Positions 984 through 8,724 of a stretch of 64,000 nt of DNA are shown here, piece by piece. The DNA is from Hysterium pulicare CBS 123377. Its lineage: Eukaryota > Ascomycota > Dothideomycetes > Hysteriales > Hysteriaceae. Location of the stretch: contig AJFK01000430.1 in assembly GCA_000467715.1 (NCBI GenBank), positions 1 to 64,000 of the forward strand, read 5' to 3'. Numbering within the stretch: position 1 is the first letter of the stretch; the number at the start of each line of letters is the position of its first letter. Below the pieces are notes generated by a model. It saw only the letters and a list, made by a program, of their open reading frames with translations, made no database searches and was not told the origin of the DNA. The translations under genes were made by a program, and so were the position numbers.

Positions 984-1438
984 TCAGTACTGACTATCCA
1001 CAGGCATGCCTTCGACTGTGGTTAGAAGTTGCATGTCAGCAAACGAATCGTCAGAAACGAGGTTCCGAAACATACGCTTCGACCCGAGCTTCCTCTCCAT
1101 GCCCTTTAGCAAGTTCTCCATGGCATCGTTCTTGTCGTTGAAGATGGCACTGAACGCCATCACGGTGCGACTCTCATCATGACCTTCTTCGTCCACGTCG
1201 AAAGCAATCACATGAATTTGGTATTGGTGATCCTCATGGTCAACTGCTGCAACGACATATTTGCTCAAGCTACCCCAGAGACATATTGCGTTCGCTGGGG
1301 GACATGTCAGTGACATGCGATCTCGAATGAGGAAGCATCACCGGGGAAAGGTGCCAGGCTGGGAATTGCAGAAGATGACTTACAAATGATCATCTTCTCC
1401 AACATCCCAAAGACCTGGAGGTCGTCCACAGACAGCAT
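984..1438 (-). CDS. Tandem small-protein family, member A
   Basis: I do not recognise this protein by name. Exons are 1384-1438 and 984-1294, giving 121 aa. The intron has a GTAAGT donor, a CACTGAC branch site and a CCCCCAG acceptor, and sits in phase 1 after residue 18. Just after the intron comes SNAICLWGSLSKYVV, then the strand-like YQIHVIAFD and a helix with NDKNDAMENLLKGM. These three blocks recur at the same places in the neighbouring minus-strand genes B-E. There is no signal peptide or membrane segment; the C-terminus is acidic. It is 648 bp downstream of gene B. Function is unknown. The structure and frame are convincing; expression is not shown. Confidence 0.72.
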
Positions 1439-2085
1439 TTTAGACGATTGGTTTGCGTATTGACAGAAGCAACGTAGTTGTTGGTCGAAGTAATGCCAGT
1501 GTAGGGAGGAAGAAGAGAGGAGCTGGAGTGTCGATGGGAATGAGTGTATATATGTTTATTGTTGCTCCAGAGATAAAAACACAGATGTCAACAAATAAAC
1601 CTAATTACAAAAGTAAACATTGGTCTCGAAAGATGAAAATTACATCAGTGGTGCCATAATTGCGGGGATAGAGTGAATGTCTCCCAGATTCCCCGTGCAC
1701 TTTCCAAATTGGGATGCTCGGACCACAACACAGACAAGGGAACACCCAATAAGCCACCAAGATCTGAGTCGAATAACAGAGGATGGACAGCTGAAGAAGA
1801 ATGACTTCCGACAAGACATAAGTGGGATATACTTTATCATCCTCTTCTCATACTACGCTGTGCGCCAGAGCTTTCACGTACCGGATATCAATTATTCTAG
1901 ACCAAAACTTCTGATTGATCAAGTCTCATAGATGGGATGCCTCGCACTAGAACTTGTGAGCCCGCCGCCCATACTATGTCATTCCTCCTAACGCACCCAA
2001 CCTGCAGAAGAATTAGAACTTTATCAGACGAATGTGTGCTGGTGTGACCAAGCTCGGGGTTTGACACCTGTAGTACGGTTCTTCC
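1439..2085. other. Intergenic between family members A and B
   Basis: Short overlapping frames occur on both strands (1605-1931), but none has splice signals or a family pattern. The stretch probably holds the 5' region of gene A and the 3' region of gene B. Confidence 0.45.
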
Positions 2086-2557
2086 TCATGCAAGCTGACC
2101 ATCCTCTAACCTCTCGCTCCTCGTCTCCACGGACGTCCTCGGCGTCGGCGTCTTCTCAACCCCCTTCCTCACTTTCACCATACCATTATTCTTCTGCTTC
2201 GCCATATGTCCCAATACAACCGAACCCAGGAGTTGTTGGAGACTTATAATCGCATCGACCGTAGACTTCGACTCCAGAGAAGTCGAAAGATACCTCATTC
2301 CTAGCGGTTCGAAGTATTCAATAAGGATCGCGGTGTAGAAACCCTGACGCTCTTCTTGAGTGACATGCCATCTGAAGCCGAGGACTACGTCGAAAGTTCT
2401 GTGATGGCCGTATAGAGCTCTTGCTGTCGCTATGACTGGCTTCAGTATCAAATGTCTGGGGGGAGACATGAGAGTACTTACAGATGATATTCTTTTTGTG
2501 GCTTTCGAAGAGTTGGTGATCTAACAGATCTTCCTCGCGGTCGGTACTGCAAGGCAT
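2086..2557 (-). CDS. Tandem small-protein family, member B
   Basis: Unrecognised protein of about 137 aa. Proposed exons are 2482-2557 and 2086-2423. The donor is GTAAGT straight after ...KNII, in phase 1 as in A, C, D and E. The acceptor is GCGACAG. After the intron come RALYGHH, then the strand FYTAILIEYF, then ESKSTVDAIISLQQLLG, which matches the family's helix. The tail of about 40 residues is basic, then polar (VKVRKGVEKTPTPRTSVE). No signal peptide or TM segment. A nearer AG would leave an intron of only 26 nt, so the acceptor at 2424 is preferred; this boundary is the weakest part of the model. Confidence 0.62.
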
Positions 2558-2668
2558 AATCGAATTGAGGAATGAGAAGGATCTGAAGTGGACGCTGGCT
2601 CGGTAGATCTTCGAGATAGGCAGGCAGGGATGTGGAGAACTGGTAACAAAGTGGGCAATCGACAGTGT

Positions 2669-3013
2669 TTATAAACGAATGATCTCGATAGAGTTTGATA
2701 TATAGCGAAAGATCTCCTCATGACCTGAACATATATCATGATGCGAATTTGTGTGGACCTGTTTGCGTAGGTTAAATGTTTGATGGCAATCAAGGGAACG
2801 CTTGGAAACGTGAGCGGCTCGCAAACGAGCGTCAACCTTGATATTTGAGCAAACAAAAAATAGGAGCCAATGGTTGATATCAGACCGGGCTAGGATGTAG
2901 ACTTCGACTGGGGGCGCAGTAAGAAGGGCCCATTGGAGGCAGGACAAACTCTCGTCATCCTCTTCCTATAATTCGTTCGGTAGAGCTCATACTTCATCTT
3001 CGGAACTGGCCAT
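2669..3013 (-). pseudogene. Possible degenerate sixth family copy
   Basis: Read on the minus strand from an ATG at 3011-3013, one frame gives MASSEDEV, then two in-frame stops (TGA, TAG) within nine codons, then EEDDESLSCLQWALL and VEVYILAR, then HWLLFFVCSNIKVDARLRAA and a stretch around SKRSLDCHQTF. This loosely follows gene C (SSESEEE..., LVIATG, YSAYLVEVEGSEIKL, EARREALHDLSYLL). The family intron is not evident. A 27-nt GTATG...TAG segment covers both stops, but that is too short for a normal intron. Either a decayed host gene copy or chance resemblance; I lean weakly to the former. Confidence 0.3.
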
Positions 3014-3196
3014 CTCTACCACCCAAACACAGCCACCTTTTTATATCAAGATTCCACGGTTAATAAGTGATATAATCCAATTCAGTTTCTGCGGGCGAAG
3101 CAGTGAAAGGATTCCATGATTTGACCGTAGATTCTTGACAGTATTAGGACCCATCTAGTGCTCCAAGGAGTCTATTGCCGATATCAGACATTATCA

Positions 3197-3780
3197 TCAC
3201 CCCTTTTGAACGCTAAACAACAAACTCCAGTCTGAGGCCTCGAAGGGAGGAGTGAATACTAGACCCGGCTGCCAATCCTCATAAGACTTTTGCTCTTGAA
3301 CCTGCTGTTTGGCCTCGGCTTTCAGATCACGCCCTTGAACTTCGATATACTTGTCGGGGAAACATAACAAGAGCCCCAAGTCTTTCATTCCCTGCCATAG
3401 CCGTTGCCTCTTCTTTATTCTTGGACCCTGCCAAGCCTCCGTCTTAAAATTAGCCAACTTCTGTTGAACAATCAATTCCAATAGGTATGAAAGATCGTGG
3501 AGGGCTTCCCGTCGAGCCTCTCCTGGAGCTGCGTGACTACAACTCCGTAGTTTGATCTCTGAACCTTCAACTTCAACCAGGTACGCAGAATACCCCTGAC
3601 ATTTGGGTTCGGCGCCGGTGGCAATAACTAGATTCCGGCTGGGATAAATGACTTGGGCATTCGCTTGAAGATAAGTTAGACAAGTGTTAACAGAAGACAT
3701 TTTACGTACAGAGTATACGGTTATACAATCCAGCCTCCTCTTCACTCTCAGATGACTTCGTGTAAACGCAGATGGTATTT
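3197..3780 (-). CDS. Tandem small-protein family, member C (5' end unresolved)
   Basis: Unrecognised protein. The last exon is 3197-3663. A 46-nt intron at 3664-3709 has a GTACGT donor, CTAAC branch site and TTCAAG acceptor. It is in phase 1 and joins ...LYNRIL to SNAQVIYPSRNLVIATG, the same junction as in gene A (SNAICLWG). Then come GYSAYLVEVEGSEIKL and EARREALHDLSYLLELI. The tail is longer than in its relatives: a basic part (IKKRQRLWQ), then an aromatic end (WQPGLVF...DWSLLFSVQKG). The upstream exon frame (KSSESEEEAGLYNRIL) has no ATG before a stop near 3800, so another 5' exon or a different start is needed. An ATG at 3698-3700 would start a 167-residue intron-free reading, but it lies inside the proposed intron. 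Confidence 0.6.
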
Positions 3781-3790
3781 GACCTGGGTT

Positions 3791-4832
3791 CCTGTTCCTG
3801 ATATCAGTTTAAATTTGCAAACGTTGATTAGACACGCGGGAAATACATTGTGCTGTTGAGCTGGTGATTGGCTTGACAATGGAACTGTCGTGTTAGTCGC
3901 CATAGTCCCACTTTGAGAGCGTAAACTCTTTTTTTAACAAATAACCCAACGCGTGAACTCCCGGATGAGTTGTTGTTTCAGTATGCCGTTGAGTGGATGG
4001 GATCAGCTCCTATACGTGCTTGTTGAGGAGTGAGAAAGATACAGATACGACCTCCTATAACTTGAAGAGTTCACAGAAGATATAATTGCAAGAAGGAATG
4101 CAGGTGAAGAGGAGTAGGAAGTGGTCATTGCGAAAACAGCGGTGTTATATGTTGCCAACTGCTTCATGCTTTGCTGGCATGTAGGGAGTGAAGCGGTGAT
4201 AATTTGTCCACATGTTTAGCCAGCGGTCTGGTGACTTCTATACGTCTAAGTCCGGAATGCTCTGACCAGGACATCCGCTGGCGATGCCAATTTTTGAGTT
4301 TAATTCTGTAGTGTCTTACCTTGCTTAACCGTCACCAACCTCCGGTGACGTTCGGTTTTCTAAAACGTGCTTACGATGAAATATTGGTGTCGAAAGCCCA
4401 GCGGTTCTCGCTGATGCTCAAGTATTGGACAGGTGACATGTCCGTTTCTATACCTAACCTCTTCATCGAGTTACAGTATTTTATTGTTGGTATTCAGGCA
4501 TCTGCAGCTTGGAGCTCACCAGAATTTTGATACTTGACTATCCTCTGCGTTGAAAATCCTAGTTGGTGCGAAGGGGAAGAGAAGGTGTGGTGTAGAAGAG
4601 AAGTGTGGAAGGGTGGGTTTAGGTACCTGCTGGGAGCGGGCTTAGTCATTCAAGATAGCCAATGAAGTTGTAGCACCCTTTCCTTTCCCCAGTCATCCAG
4701 GAGTCATGTACCGCACGGTCATATCGTTTTTGCAAAACAGCCATTGAACGAACTGTCCTACTCATTACCCAGAAAAGACTGCCTTATCTTTACACATAGT
4801 AAGGAGTGACTCGATCCTTCTTCCCATTCTTA
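3791..4832. other. Intergenic between members C and D
   Basis: About 1 kb without a supportable gene. A plus frame at 4321-4530 starts with TTG and has no splice or family signal. This is the widest gap in the cluster. Confidence 0.45.
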
Positions 4833-5198
4833 TCAACCACCACACTCCAACAGGCCTCCAAACTTTTCAGCAATGAAGTCAATAGCCATTGACCGCCGGG
4901 AGGCTGTTTCTTCATGAAGAACCAAAGTCCCCTTCTCGTCATTGTTGATCAGCTGAGCTGTGAATTCTTCTTTTCTGAGAGCAATGGCGACACTAAGCTC
5001 AGCTTGGCGGCCATAAATAATCTTTCCCATGGCTGGAAATATCATAAATTAGTATGTAGCAAAACGTAAAGTTGCAAGAGCGAGGGTCATACTGATGATC
5101 CGTTTCTCTAGTGACTCATAGACTTCTGTATCTTTGTGAAGATCTTCGGGGATAGTAGTGTCGGTGGATTTCTTGGGGGGTTGTTCCTTTTCTGACAT
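4833..5198 (-). CDS. Tandem small-protein family, member D
   Basis: Unrecognised protein of 101 aa from exons 5093-5198 and 4833-5032. The donor is GTATGA directly after EKRII, phase 1; the acceptor is TTTCCAG with a nearby CTAAT branch-like site. The N-terminal exon is charged (KEQPPKKSTD). After the intron come MGKIIYGRQAELSVAIAL, EEFTAQLINND and SRRSMAIDFIAEKFGGLL, the three family blocks in order. It is the most compact member and ends right after the helix, so it may show the minimal shared module. It lies 250 bp downstream of gene E. Confidence 0.72.
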
Positions 5199-5448
5199 GC
5201 TTGGCTGCGGGTTGATCGTATGCTTCGAAAATTATTGTTGTTTTAAGGGAGATATAGTGATCTAGGGTTTCTATAATTTTTCGAAGTAGTATAAAGACGA
5301 GCCATGAATTGGGAAAGTGATCACATTGCGAGGGAAGTGGTGAGTGAATGAAATAAACATGGAGATTGTCTCCTGAAAGGGTATCTAGATCCGAAACTTC
5401 GAAGCACAAAATGAATCATTTGCGTATCCCACCCTTCCCCATGAGTCT

Positions 5449-6003
5449 CTAAAAATGTCGCTGAGGCACCCAACGATGAAGAACAATATGTGAATTTTCA
5501 CAATTCTGTTTCCTCCAATACGTCTCCCATACGCAAGGCATCCATGGGGGATTCATTCCACAGTCGGAACAGATATATTTTGAAGGCTCGACCTTCGCAT
5601 GATTTTTTCGAGCCATAGGACCGGGTTGTCGACCGTCGAGTTTTTCTATCAAGCCCTTCATAGCCTCGCTCTCGTTTTTCGCTTCAGGTGATTGGATGAC
5701 GTGATAAGGTCCGCATTGCACCACCAGCCAACAAATAACCTCGGGATCGCAAGGCAGTTTTCGGGAGTTGTAAACGACCTGATAATTGATATCTGGCCCG
5801 TAGATGCGTTGAATATGGCCTAAATTATGTGAGCTCTTGTCATGTCGTTTGGCTCAGGGGAAGTGTTTGATGGTTGGGTACGTACAATGCATGAGTGATT
5901 CTAATTCTTTCTTCGCGCTCTTTTCAGTTTTCTTCTCGGGTTGAGAGACGCACGGGATGATTTTGGGGTTCATTGTGAGCGCTGTCTGGTTTTGCGTGGA
6001 CAT
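5449..6003 (-). CDS. Tandem small-protein family, member E, with Cys-containing tail
   Basis: Unrecognised protein of 162 aa from exons 5886-6003 and 5449-5819. The donor is GTACGT after ...ELESLMH and the acceptor is TTTAG; the phase is again 1. HIQRIYGPDINYQVVYN follows the intron, then EVICWLVVQCGPYHVIQ and KNESEAMKGLIEKLDG. Unlike its neighbours it has about 60 further residues with ICSDCG, MPCVWETYW and QNCENSHIVLHRW. The CxxC and later Cys/His residues could bind a metal, but spacing fits no zinc-finger family I know. The N-terminal exon is Lys/Glu-rich. It is the most upstream member of the cluster. Confidence 0.7.
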
Positions 6004-7130
6004 ATTTGATGAGGATTTCCGGTCAAAGTTGTTTGAGGAGATGACTTGTTGCAGTAGAGCAGTAGATTTTGAGATGTAGAGAGTAATCCTGGTGAATGTC
6101 GTTTTGGGAAATGGTTTGTTGTAGTAGAACAGTAGATTTGAGATGCAGAGCAAATTATGGGTAAGGCGAGTATTTAAAAAAATTGTTGGGGAAAAGAACG
6201 TTGGAAGCTTGGATTTGAAAGAATCCACGGTTAAGCTTGAAAAATCATCATTACCTTAGAATGACTCCTTAATCTGACGCCTGATTGGATTGTCCCTACA
6301 TTGAAATTGGTCTTGAAGGCTTGTCCATGATGAATATACATGTTTAATGAATTCCAGATAGCCTAGAAAGAAGAACTGGAATGACCCCTACCGTTGGAAA
6401 GAAACGAGGGAGATACTTGAATTTGTAATTCGTTGTGGAGGCTGAAAATGCAGCGTGGATAGAGATCATAGTGCGAGGCTTGGAGTTTGCGTACCAAGGT
6501 ACCGTGCCTGTTCAGGGTCTGACATACCCAGCATCCAGCCCTGCGCCTATATTAGCAGTATGGCTTCAAAGAAAACTGCCCAAACATTTCTCATCATTGC
6601 CAACGGAATATAGGGTTGAAAAGCTCAGGTCGGGATGAAGTAGAAGAGCAAACATGCTAGATAAGCCTGGAGTTGACTTTTAAAAGGCACAGACCTACAG
6701 AAGCTAGGATCATCGGCGCCTTACTGAAAAGCGTTTCGAAACGAAGTAAGCCCGCGGGCGTCATCGGCCTTCGAATCCTCGCAGTCCAACTCTCATCTGG
6801 TAGTTTTCCGGGTGCGCTATTTAATTGTTCAATCCTTCATCCACCTGTCTCTTTAAAGCCGACCTCTCCATAGCCCTCAACTCAATCCACCTGTTTCCCT
6901 CGACAGTACGCAATAAGAGAAACTTTCCACAGATTCGTGCGGATCCCCGCGGAAGCAGTTCGCTATTGTTACTTTGAGCTCTGCATGTCCTGGGTTGATA
7001 CATTTGAAGCATCCCCAACTTTAACAGTGCCATGGTTTCAAGAATTTAAAGGCCTGTCGACTCACGAATCCGACCACAGATCTCAACGATAAATATTTAA
7101 ACGCCGAGCTCGGTCAGCCACTCCGGCGCA
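6004..7130. other. Intergenic, upstream of member E and of the DUF2434-like gene
   Basis: No gene supported. Short frames at 6435-6638 and 6673-6873 (plus) and 6821-7033 (minus) overlap one another and lack splice or family signals. Diverging promoters for gene E and the membrane-protein gene at 7131 must lie here. Confidence 0.45.
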
Positions 7131-8724
7131 ATGCCTCTTCTCAACATCCGGGAGCTGCTACAGTTTCCATCTGGGGACAATTCAAGCGAGACAATCATCA
7201 ATGGGGTTCATTTCAATCTCACAGCTTTGGAGTATTACAACTACACCCTATACAGCAACGACACAATCTCCAACGCGTCGAAATGCTACCTTATCTTCAA
7301 ACAATTCCAACCACACATGTTCGCCAACGGCAGTTGGATCAACGCTACATCATGTTATACCCCATACTATCATATACACGGCCGTGGTATCGCAAGCATT
7401 GCCTTCGGAACGGTCTTCTTGTTAAGCATCATGTTTACATTAGTCAACCTGCGGAAACACGGACGATCGTTCCTTCGGGAGGATAAGAGATTCAGATTGG
7501 TTGGAAGGCGGTGGCAGTGGTATTGGATGTGCTTCGTTGCGACATGCGGCGTCATCAGCTGTTTGACGGGGATAGACGTGGACCGATATTATTTGCAACA
7601 GATTCCGATCGTCCTGCAAAGTTTCTTCTACGTGTTGATGGTTCCGGGCACATTGGCTATGGTCTGGGAGGCTACAAGACACTGGTAAGTTGGAGACTGT
7701 GAGACCGAAATGGAGGTTAACTAATCAATACAGGGGCTCTTGGCAGGAGAGACAAATACATGATCGCGATCCTTTCCTACTTCCACAAGACGACAAGCGT
7801 GGCAAGACAGAGTTCTGGTTGCCGCTGGTATTTTACCTCTTTGCCTGGCTAAATTTCTTTATGACTATCCCCCGCTCCTGGGCTGCCATAGAGAAACAAA
7901 ACACTCCCGAGCAAAAGGCAGATATCGCTAAACCCGCCGGGACTGATGTCCGGGAAAAAGCAGGAGCAATTCTAGCAGCATGTGCCTGGTTCGTCATATG
8001 TTATTCTCTAAGACATTCCTTATATTGGTATAAACCCCGCGCAACTGGATTCTGGAACAAGATCAATTCGTTCTGCCACTACTGCCCAACGAAATTATTT
8101 CTAGTCATCGTGATCCTTGCGGTTCGCATAGCCTATGCGATTGCAAGTGCTTGGGTATGGGATATCAGCATCTTCAAATATGGTGTAGAAATTGGATGGC
8201 CCTTTGGACTAGGATATGGAACTACCGTCTTGATACTTCTCATCCTAGAGATTGCTGGATACGCTGAGGAAAATGAAGACAAAGTGCTCATTACACAGCG
8301 AAGAGAACGCGGTCGGACGGTCGATCAAGAGTTGGGCCTCGTGCAGAAGCCACATTGGTGGAGCAAAAATCATACAGACCGTTTTCTCAACGACGACCAG
8401 AGACTTCGAAATATGACTACGGAAGTTGGAGGCGGCAGGCCAACAGCACGGAACATCCAGACGAACATAGAAATGGGAAACATGAGGACAGGGTTGAGGA
8501 ATCGATCACGGGATAGGCCGGCTGATGACCCGTTTAGGGACGATTATAATCCTCAGTCCCCTCAACAGACGGGCACGACTGGAGATAGACTCACGGTAAC
8601 GAGGACTGAAAGCGACACTGCCAGTACGATGACTGGTAATTCAGGGAACACCGGCATGACAGGTCGAACATTGACATCGGAGAATGCCAAACCGCAAGTG
8701 ATTAGAAGCATGCTGGACATCTGA
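7131..8724 (+). CDS. Seven-TM membrane protein, DUF2434-like
   Basis: Exons 7131-7684 and 7734-8724 give 514 aa; the intron has GTAAGT and CAATACAG. The N-terminal 80 residues hold several N-x-S/T sites (NLT, NYT, NDT, NAS, NGS, NAT) and three Cys, so they probably face the lumen or outside. Seven hydrophobic stretches follow, near residues 87-107, 130-148, 158-179, 208-226, 263-280, 305-325 and 342-360. The C-terminal 150 residues are polar and Arg/Thr/Ser-rich. This layout fits the fungal DUF2434 heptahelical family as I recall it; the role is unknown. A GPCR-like topology is an inference from the segment count. Confidence 0.8.

Follow-up and report, generated by a model that had tools for sequence, protein, structure and literature searches.

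Whether five small genes crowded near the start of a fungal contig are relatives, and what their product might do when sequence search connects hardly any of them, is the question raised by the opening 64 kb of contig C328 (AJFK01000430.1) of Hysterium pulicare CBS 123377. This stretch is here called the window; the whole contig has 78,929 bases in an assembly of 37.2 Mb and 596 contigs. The genes, A to E, all lie on the minus strand between window positions 984 and 6003. The original prediction saw in them five diverged members of one family, each with three blocks in order: a hydrophobic-Tyr/Trp-Gly motif, a strand and an amphipathic helix. The five genes within 5 kb and the quoted blocks are all present in the sequence, apart from one letter in the strand block of gene D, which was quoted as FTAQLIND and reads FTAQLINND. 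They belong to a real, fast-diverging tandem family with a conserved intron that is not in Pfam-A.

The intron was said to sit at a matching position, and it does: in 5/5 genes it is in phase 1 and its split codon lies 6 residues ahead of the first-block Tyr/Trp, with a conserved segment ahead of that block spanning the intron. The splice sites of A-E were picked by hand with the family intron position in mind. The same phase and spacing recur in all 11 spliced copies (A-E and six on contig C170, described below). The accompanying claim of one intron per gene is right for the family intron, present in all five, but gene C requires at least one extra 5' exon. A scan with an intron-border grammar, tuned on genes A-E themselves, recovered 5/5 genes when applied to the minus strand over the first 8 kb. 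Over both strands of the remaining 56 kb, GTA or GTG donors gave no matches and GTT or GTC donors gave three; within 24.3 kb of C170 the scan picked up just 2/7 copies. The annotated frame has the top codon score of the six frames in every gene (A 0.247, B 0.112, C 0.116, D 0.293, E 0.099).

Profile comparison gives a further line of evidence for kinship. A profile hidden Markov model (HMM) built from six copies outside the window was run against the 1,326 open reading frames (ORFs) of the window, and ranks 1 to 4 went to B (E-value 1.2e-5), A (0.034), D (0.43) and C (0.84). When each gene was left out of the training set in turn, only the exons of the training genes themselves ranked above its exon-2 ORF (E-values: A, 0.1; B, 1.4e-6; C, 0.0074; D, 0.0049; E, 0.69); there is a mild bias in these values, as the left-out rows had helped to build the alignment. 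The family alignment, which served the profile, hhalign and identity work, excludes two copies (m3 and m5) and has one row, L019, misplaced by two columns within helix 2.

The family extends beyond the cluster described in the original prediction; that array is real, and at least two arrays exist. The second one, at about 52.8-60.8 kb of C170 and all on the minus strand, holds seven copies: m1, L030, m3, m4, m5 (locus L031), m6 and L019. Six of them splice with the phase and spacing of A-E. A single copy, L010 on contig C498, has the same domain without the intron. The C170 array was revealed by intron-border and NAxxLYG patterns together with a local HMM, and L010 by the search with gene C. 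This brings the copies to 13, the family intron being missing in L010 and m5 having no matching donor; the counts are lower bounds because the genome was searched by proteins, families and patterns only. Three C170 frames are irregular. In m3 (54.6-55.1 kb) a stop closes the frame once strand 2 has been read, owing either to a shift of frame or to a second intron that escaped recognition; m5 (57.3-57.6 kb) ends early; and the frame of m4 (about 56.3 kb) finishes with a hydrophobic stretch that may be a membrane segment or the result of reading through an intron not recognised as such. Other pattern matches (L016-L018, L026, L028, L029, L032, L033 and the remainder outside C170 and C498) and the donor matches L021 and L025 were judged on reading to be chance. 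A junction of the C170 end with the C328 start was ruled out, as the two have no sequence in common.

Identity within the family is very low. Mean identity is 18.4% within C328, 23.4% within C170 and 18.9% between the arrays, and pairs among A-E share 13-24%. In single-protein searches of their own genome, which score best candidates only, A, B, D, E and L010 each retrieve only themselves and C retrieves L010 at E 0.097, so that the kinship is indeed hidden from ordinary search, as had been proposed. In a quick tree the branches are very long, no support exceeds 0.87 and the two arrays are intermixed; A-E therefore do not have the look of a recent amplification.

Such low identities and self-only searches would also be expected of five unrelated small genes or relics that look alike by chance, and several results weigh on that side. 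Gene E ranks ninth in the non-window profile (E 6.4), behind four unrelated ORFs, and the E-values of three further genes are weak. The codon scores of B, C and E are modest, and 1 of 24 intergenic frames, at 0.131, exceeds all three (the next intergenic frame scores 0.030). The coincidence would nevertheless have to extend to intron place and phase, to the profile ranks and to a second array. For A-D the independent profile goes most of the way to refuting it, and for E its refutation depends on the intron; as a whole it is very improbable. Gene E is counted as a member mainly because of its intron place and phase and its position. Judged from the sequences, A-E are almost certainly one diverged family, sharing common descent with the C170 and C498 copies.

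The alignment reads ..LKxxIISNAxxLYG, Y-D-V/I-V, Y-x-A-x-L-V/I, a short G-R-x-L and S..EAMxxLLxxL. It suggests a domain of about 80 residues whose order is probably helix-strand-strand-strand-helix; the blocks of the strand-strand-helix order first described are seen, but that order itself is probably to be replaced by the longer one. The predicted helix 2 has a clean hydrophobic moment, peaking at 100 degrees.

The description of the family as unrecognised stands as regards Pfam-A and PDB sequences. No Pfam-A family reached any cut-off in A-E or in 11 members, in a search whose filters discard most matches above E 0.1; the best sub-threshold matches, Glutaredoxin2_C (0.024) and DUF4494 (0.033), occur in one member each and were taken as chance. 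A sequence search of the PDB found nothing close (best E 1.6, collagen VI), and a PHROGs search with gene D gave two families whose function is unknown (E 0.16 and 0.26). Among the publications listed in literature searches, no title or abstract opening described the family. Small, diverging, clustered orphans are typical of the secreted protein sets of host-associated fungi, and the products could be secreted non-classically. By eye, A-E and the C170 copies contain no signal peptide, which counts against secretion and makes it quite unlikely.

The original prediction also compared the domain loosely with the double-stranded RNA-binding domain (dsRBD). Aligned by hhalign with a set of 10 dsRBD sequences, the family scored 16.3 over 48 columns, from strand 1 to helix 2. 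This score was reached by 0/200 column shuffles, by 0/59 of a second shuffle set (60 made, one aberrant shuffle dropped) and by 0/200 block permutations, whose maximum was 12.1. Control profiles remained within noise (RRM 7.4, KH 7.3, cystatin 9.6). These comparisons suggest a weak, specific hint of dsRBD resemblance and not membership, and that the domain has a dsRBD-like fold is possible, though it is the less probable outcome. The module once proposed thus keeps a score that beats 200/200 permutations, but its hhalign probability is low, no dsrm match is found and the basic helix-2 residue is absent.

A number of observations stand against this fold and the element order on which it is based. 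The hhalign P-value is 0.014 and the probability 3.2%; five canonical dsRBDs alone score 10.7, reached by 4/59 shuffles, while the reversed family scores 11.7; the mL44-type dsRBD alone scores 11.2, reached by 1/59 shuffles and so near noise; and the automatic alignment extends over only 23 columns, with a probability of 1.7%. None of the 11 members matches Pfam dsrm (PF00035). Helix 1 has its highest hydrophobic moment at 130 degrees and its second highest at 100, and the two strands, with peaks at 60 and 100, do not display a clear strand period. AlphaFold2 models of C (mean predicted local distance difference test, pLDDT, 70.5) and B (78.1) have four strands and a long last helix, which in itself agrees with the reading preferred below. 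Both, however, render the first element as a strand, the true helix 1 being absent; the first strand of the C model (residues 14-17) is exon-coded, which speaks against a helix there, although the exon-1 half of the expected helix is missing from the model. Finally, Foldseek with both models returned nothing below E 0.09, and the top listed matches were other folds.

The same models lend weight to the view that the family has a different alpha+beta fold, whether cystatin-like, PUR- or PC4-like or new, that has no relation to dsRBDs and is compatible with a role in protein contact. Four strands with a helix suit it. Among the 50 Foldseek matches listed, the C model has a PC4 homologue, WGR domains and Pur-alpha repeat III, and the B model has DCAF15, a cystatin and the CaMKII hub; a Dicer-like 4 chain, at rank 49 with E 1.4, is not meaningful. 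However, the folding input was the unspliced window translations of B and C, and because of this residues encoded by the intron occupy the expected start of helix 1: they make up 7/10 of the first strand in B and precede the first strand in C. Every Foldseek E-value exceeds 0.09, and the score of the cystatin profile, made from 3 sequences, was reached by 8/59 shuffles. Another fold is a serious contender, falling somewhat short of an even chance.

A different possibility is that the proteins actively bind double-stranded RNA (dsRNA), tuning RNA silencing or resisting mycoviruses. The weak dsRBD-profile signal would agree with this, and fast divergence is compatible with conflict. Many fungal Dicers are reported to have no detectable dsRBD, and the authors of that work suggest that divergent ones may exist (PMC12663654). 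Against dsRNA binding, the residue after the helix-2 Ala is Met, Ile or Leu in 11/11 members, where 8/10 dsRBD rows have Lys or Arg, and in 7/11 domains acidic residues outnumber basic ones (the reverse holds in 3, and 1 is balanced). Active dsRNA binding is accordingly unlikely.

The reading we prefer is that this 37.2-Mb genome harbours a gene family that diverges fast and of which A-E form one array. Each member would be a small soluble protein built around one domain, presumably intracellular because no signal peptide was seen by eye. The domain may work by protein-protein contact, as a putative dimer, adaptor or decoy, and tandem duplication, divergence and loss could yield new specificities. 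It may be related to the dsRBD fold in degenerate form, or just resemble it, the basic dsRNA-contact residues having been lost. A family plus putative protein-contact module, whatever its exact fold, comes close to an even chance. The more specific version, a fungal expansion of degenerate dsRBD-fold proteins without canonical dsRNA binding that diversify as adaptors or decoys, for example around RNA silencing or self/non-self recognition, is a long way less probable; such proteins would be hidden from Pfam because identity falls to about 18%, while the intron position is kept.

More generally, old kinship that has passed beyond the reach of sequence search may be common among fungal orphan genes. 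Here the intron border, which has stayed fixed, served as a search pattern and retrieved paralogues that are 10-30% identical. Should the fold prove dsRBD-like, a hidden, fast-evolving branch would be added to a core domain of RNA biology.

Gene models of the five window members are listed in the table below. The preferred 5' exon of gene C is one among three candidate models, and this gene also bears a C-terminal extension. The C-terminal tail of gene E (window 5449-5600) is Cys-rich (CxxC and more Cys), unlike A-D, and possibly metal-binding.

Table. Gene models of the C328 array (window positions; aa, amino acids)
Feature	Position	Strand	Details
Gene A	984-1438	minus	121 aa; exon 1 1384-1438, exon 2 984-1294 including stop
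Gene A intron	1295-1383	minus	89 nt, phase 1
Gene B	2086-2557	minus	139 aa; exon 1 2482-2557, exon 2 2086-2429
Gene B intron	2430-2481	minus	52 nt, phase 1; alternative AG six bases further on
Gene C	3197-3903	minus	at least 171 aa from later exons; 203 aa with preferred 5' exon
Gene C exons	3847-3903 (proposed 5' exon); 3710-3797; 3197-3663 (last exon)	minus
Gene C introns	3798-3846 (proposed); 3664-3709 (family intron)	minus	family intron 46 nt, phase 1
Gene D	4833-5198	minus	101 aa; exon 1 5093-5198, exon 2 4833-5032
Gene D intron	5033-5092	minus	60 nt, phase 1
Gene E	5449-6003	minus	162 aa; exon 1 5886-6003, exon 2 5449-5819
Gene E intron	5820-5885	minus	66 nt, phase 1

Around the cluster, window 6011-6139, just upstream of the gene E start codon, contains a direct repeat of 59 nt (76% alike, spacing 70), and a perfect 15-bp inverted repeat (25-39 and 61-75), possibly a mobile-element end, is found at the contig start. 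Two plus-strand ORFs at 7131-8724 adjoin the cluster and jointly cover the DUF2434 profile; they are probably one spliced gene. The window contains no tRNA and no Rfam match above the gathering score. The C170 array is adjoined by an eIF3e gene with an eIF3_N domain (C170 62,293-62,976; L036 293-976) and L010 by an eIF3g gene (C498 88,297-89,217; L041 1297-2217). The presence of eIF3 subunit genes beside two of the three family loci is probably coincidence.

Among the closest known systems is the dsRBD (PF00035). The motifs of that domain include basic residues at the start of helix 2 and a GPxH-type loop. The family is like it in predicted element order, length, the in-register alignment and the invariant helix-2 Ala. 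It differs in having no dsrm match, no basic residue after that Ala and, by eye, no GxxH loop linking strand 1 to strand 2; gene E does carry a literal GPYH, but after strand 2. Searching the whole genome with dsrm returned only L003 and L004, neither of them one of the genes A-E. L004 (contig C250; L004 1186-1713) is likewise small, with a dsRBD-like region and a Cys-rich tail like that of gene E, but its dsrm match is sub-threshold (18.3 bits) and no NAxxLYG motif is seen in it by eye. L003 is the genome copy of the mitochondrial ribosomal protein mL44, whose dsRBD passes the dsrm cut-off and matches PDB mL44 chains, whereas the family does neither. The mL44 domain nonetheless shows that a dsRBD whose helix 2 starts in degenerate form can serve within a protein assembly, and in this it would resemble the family.

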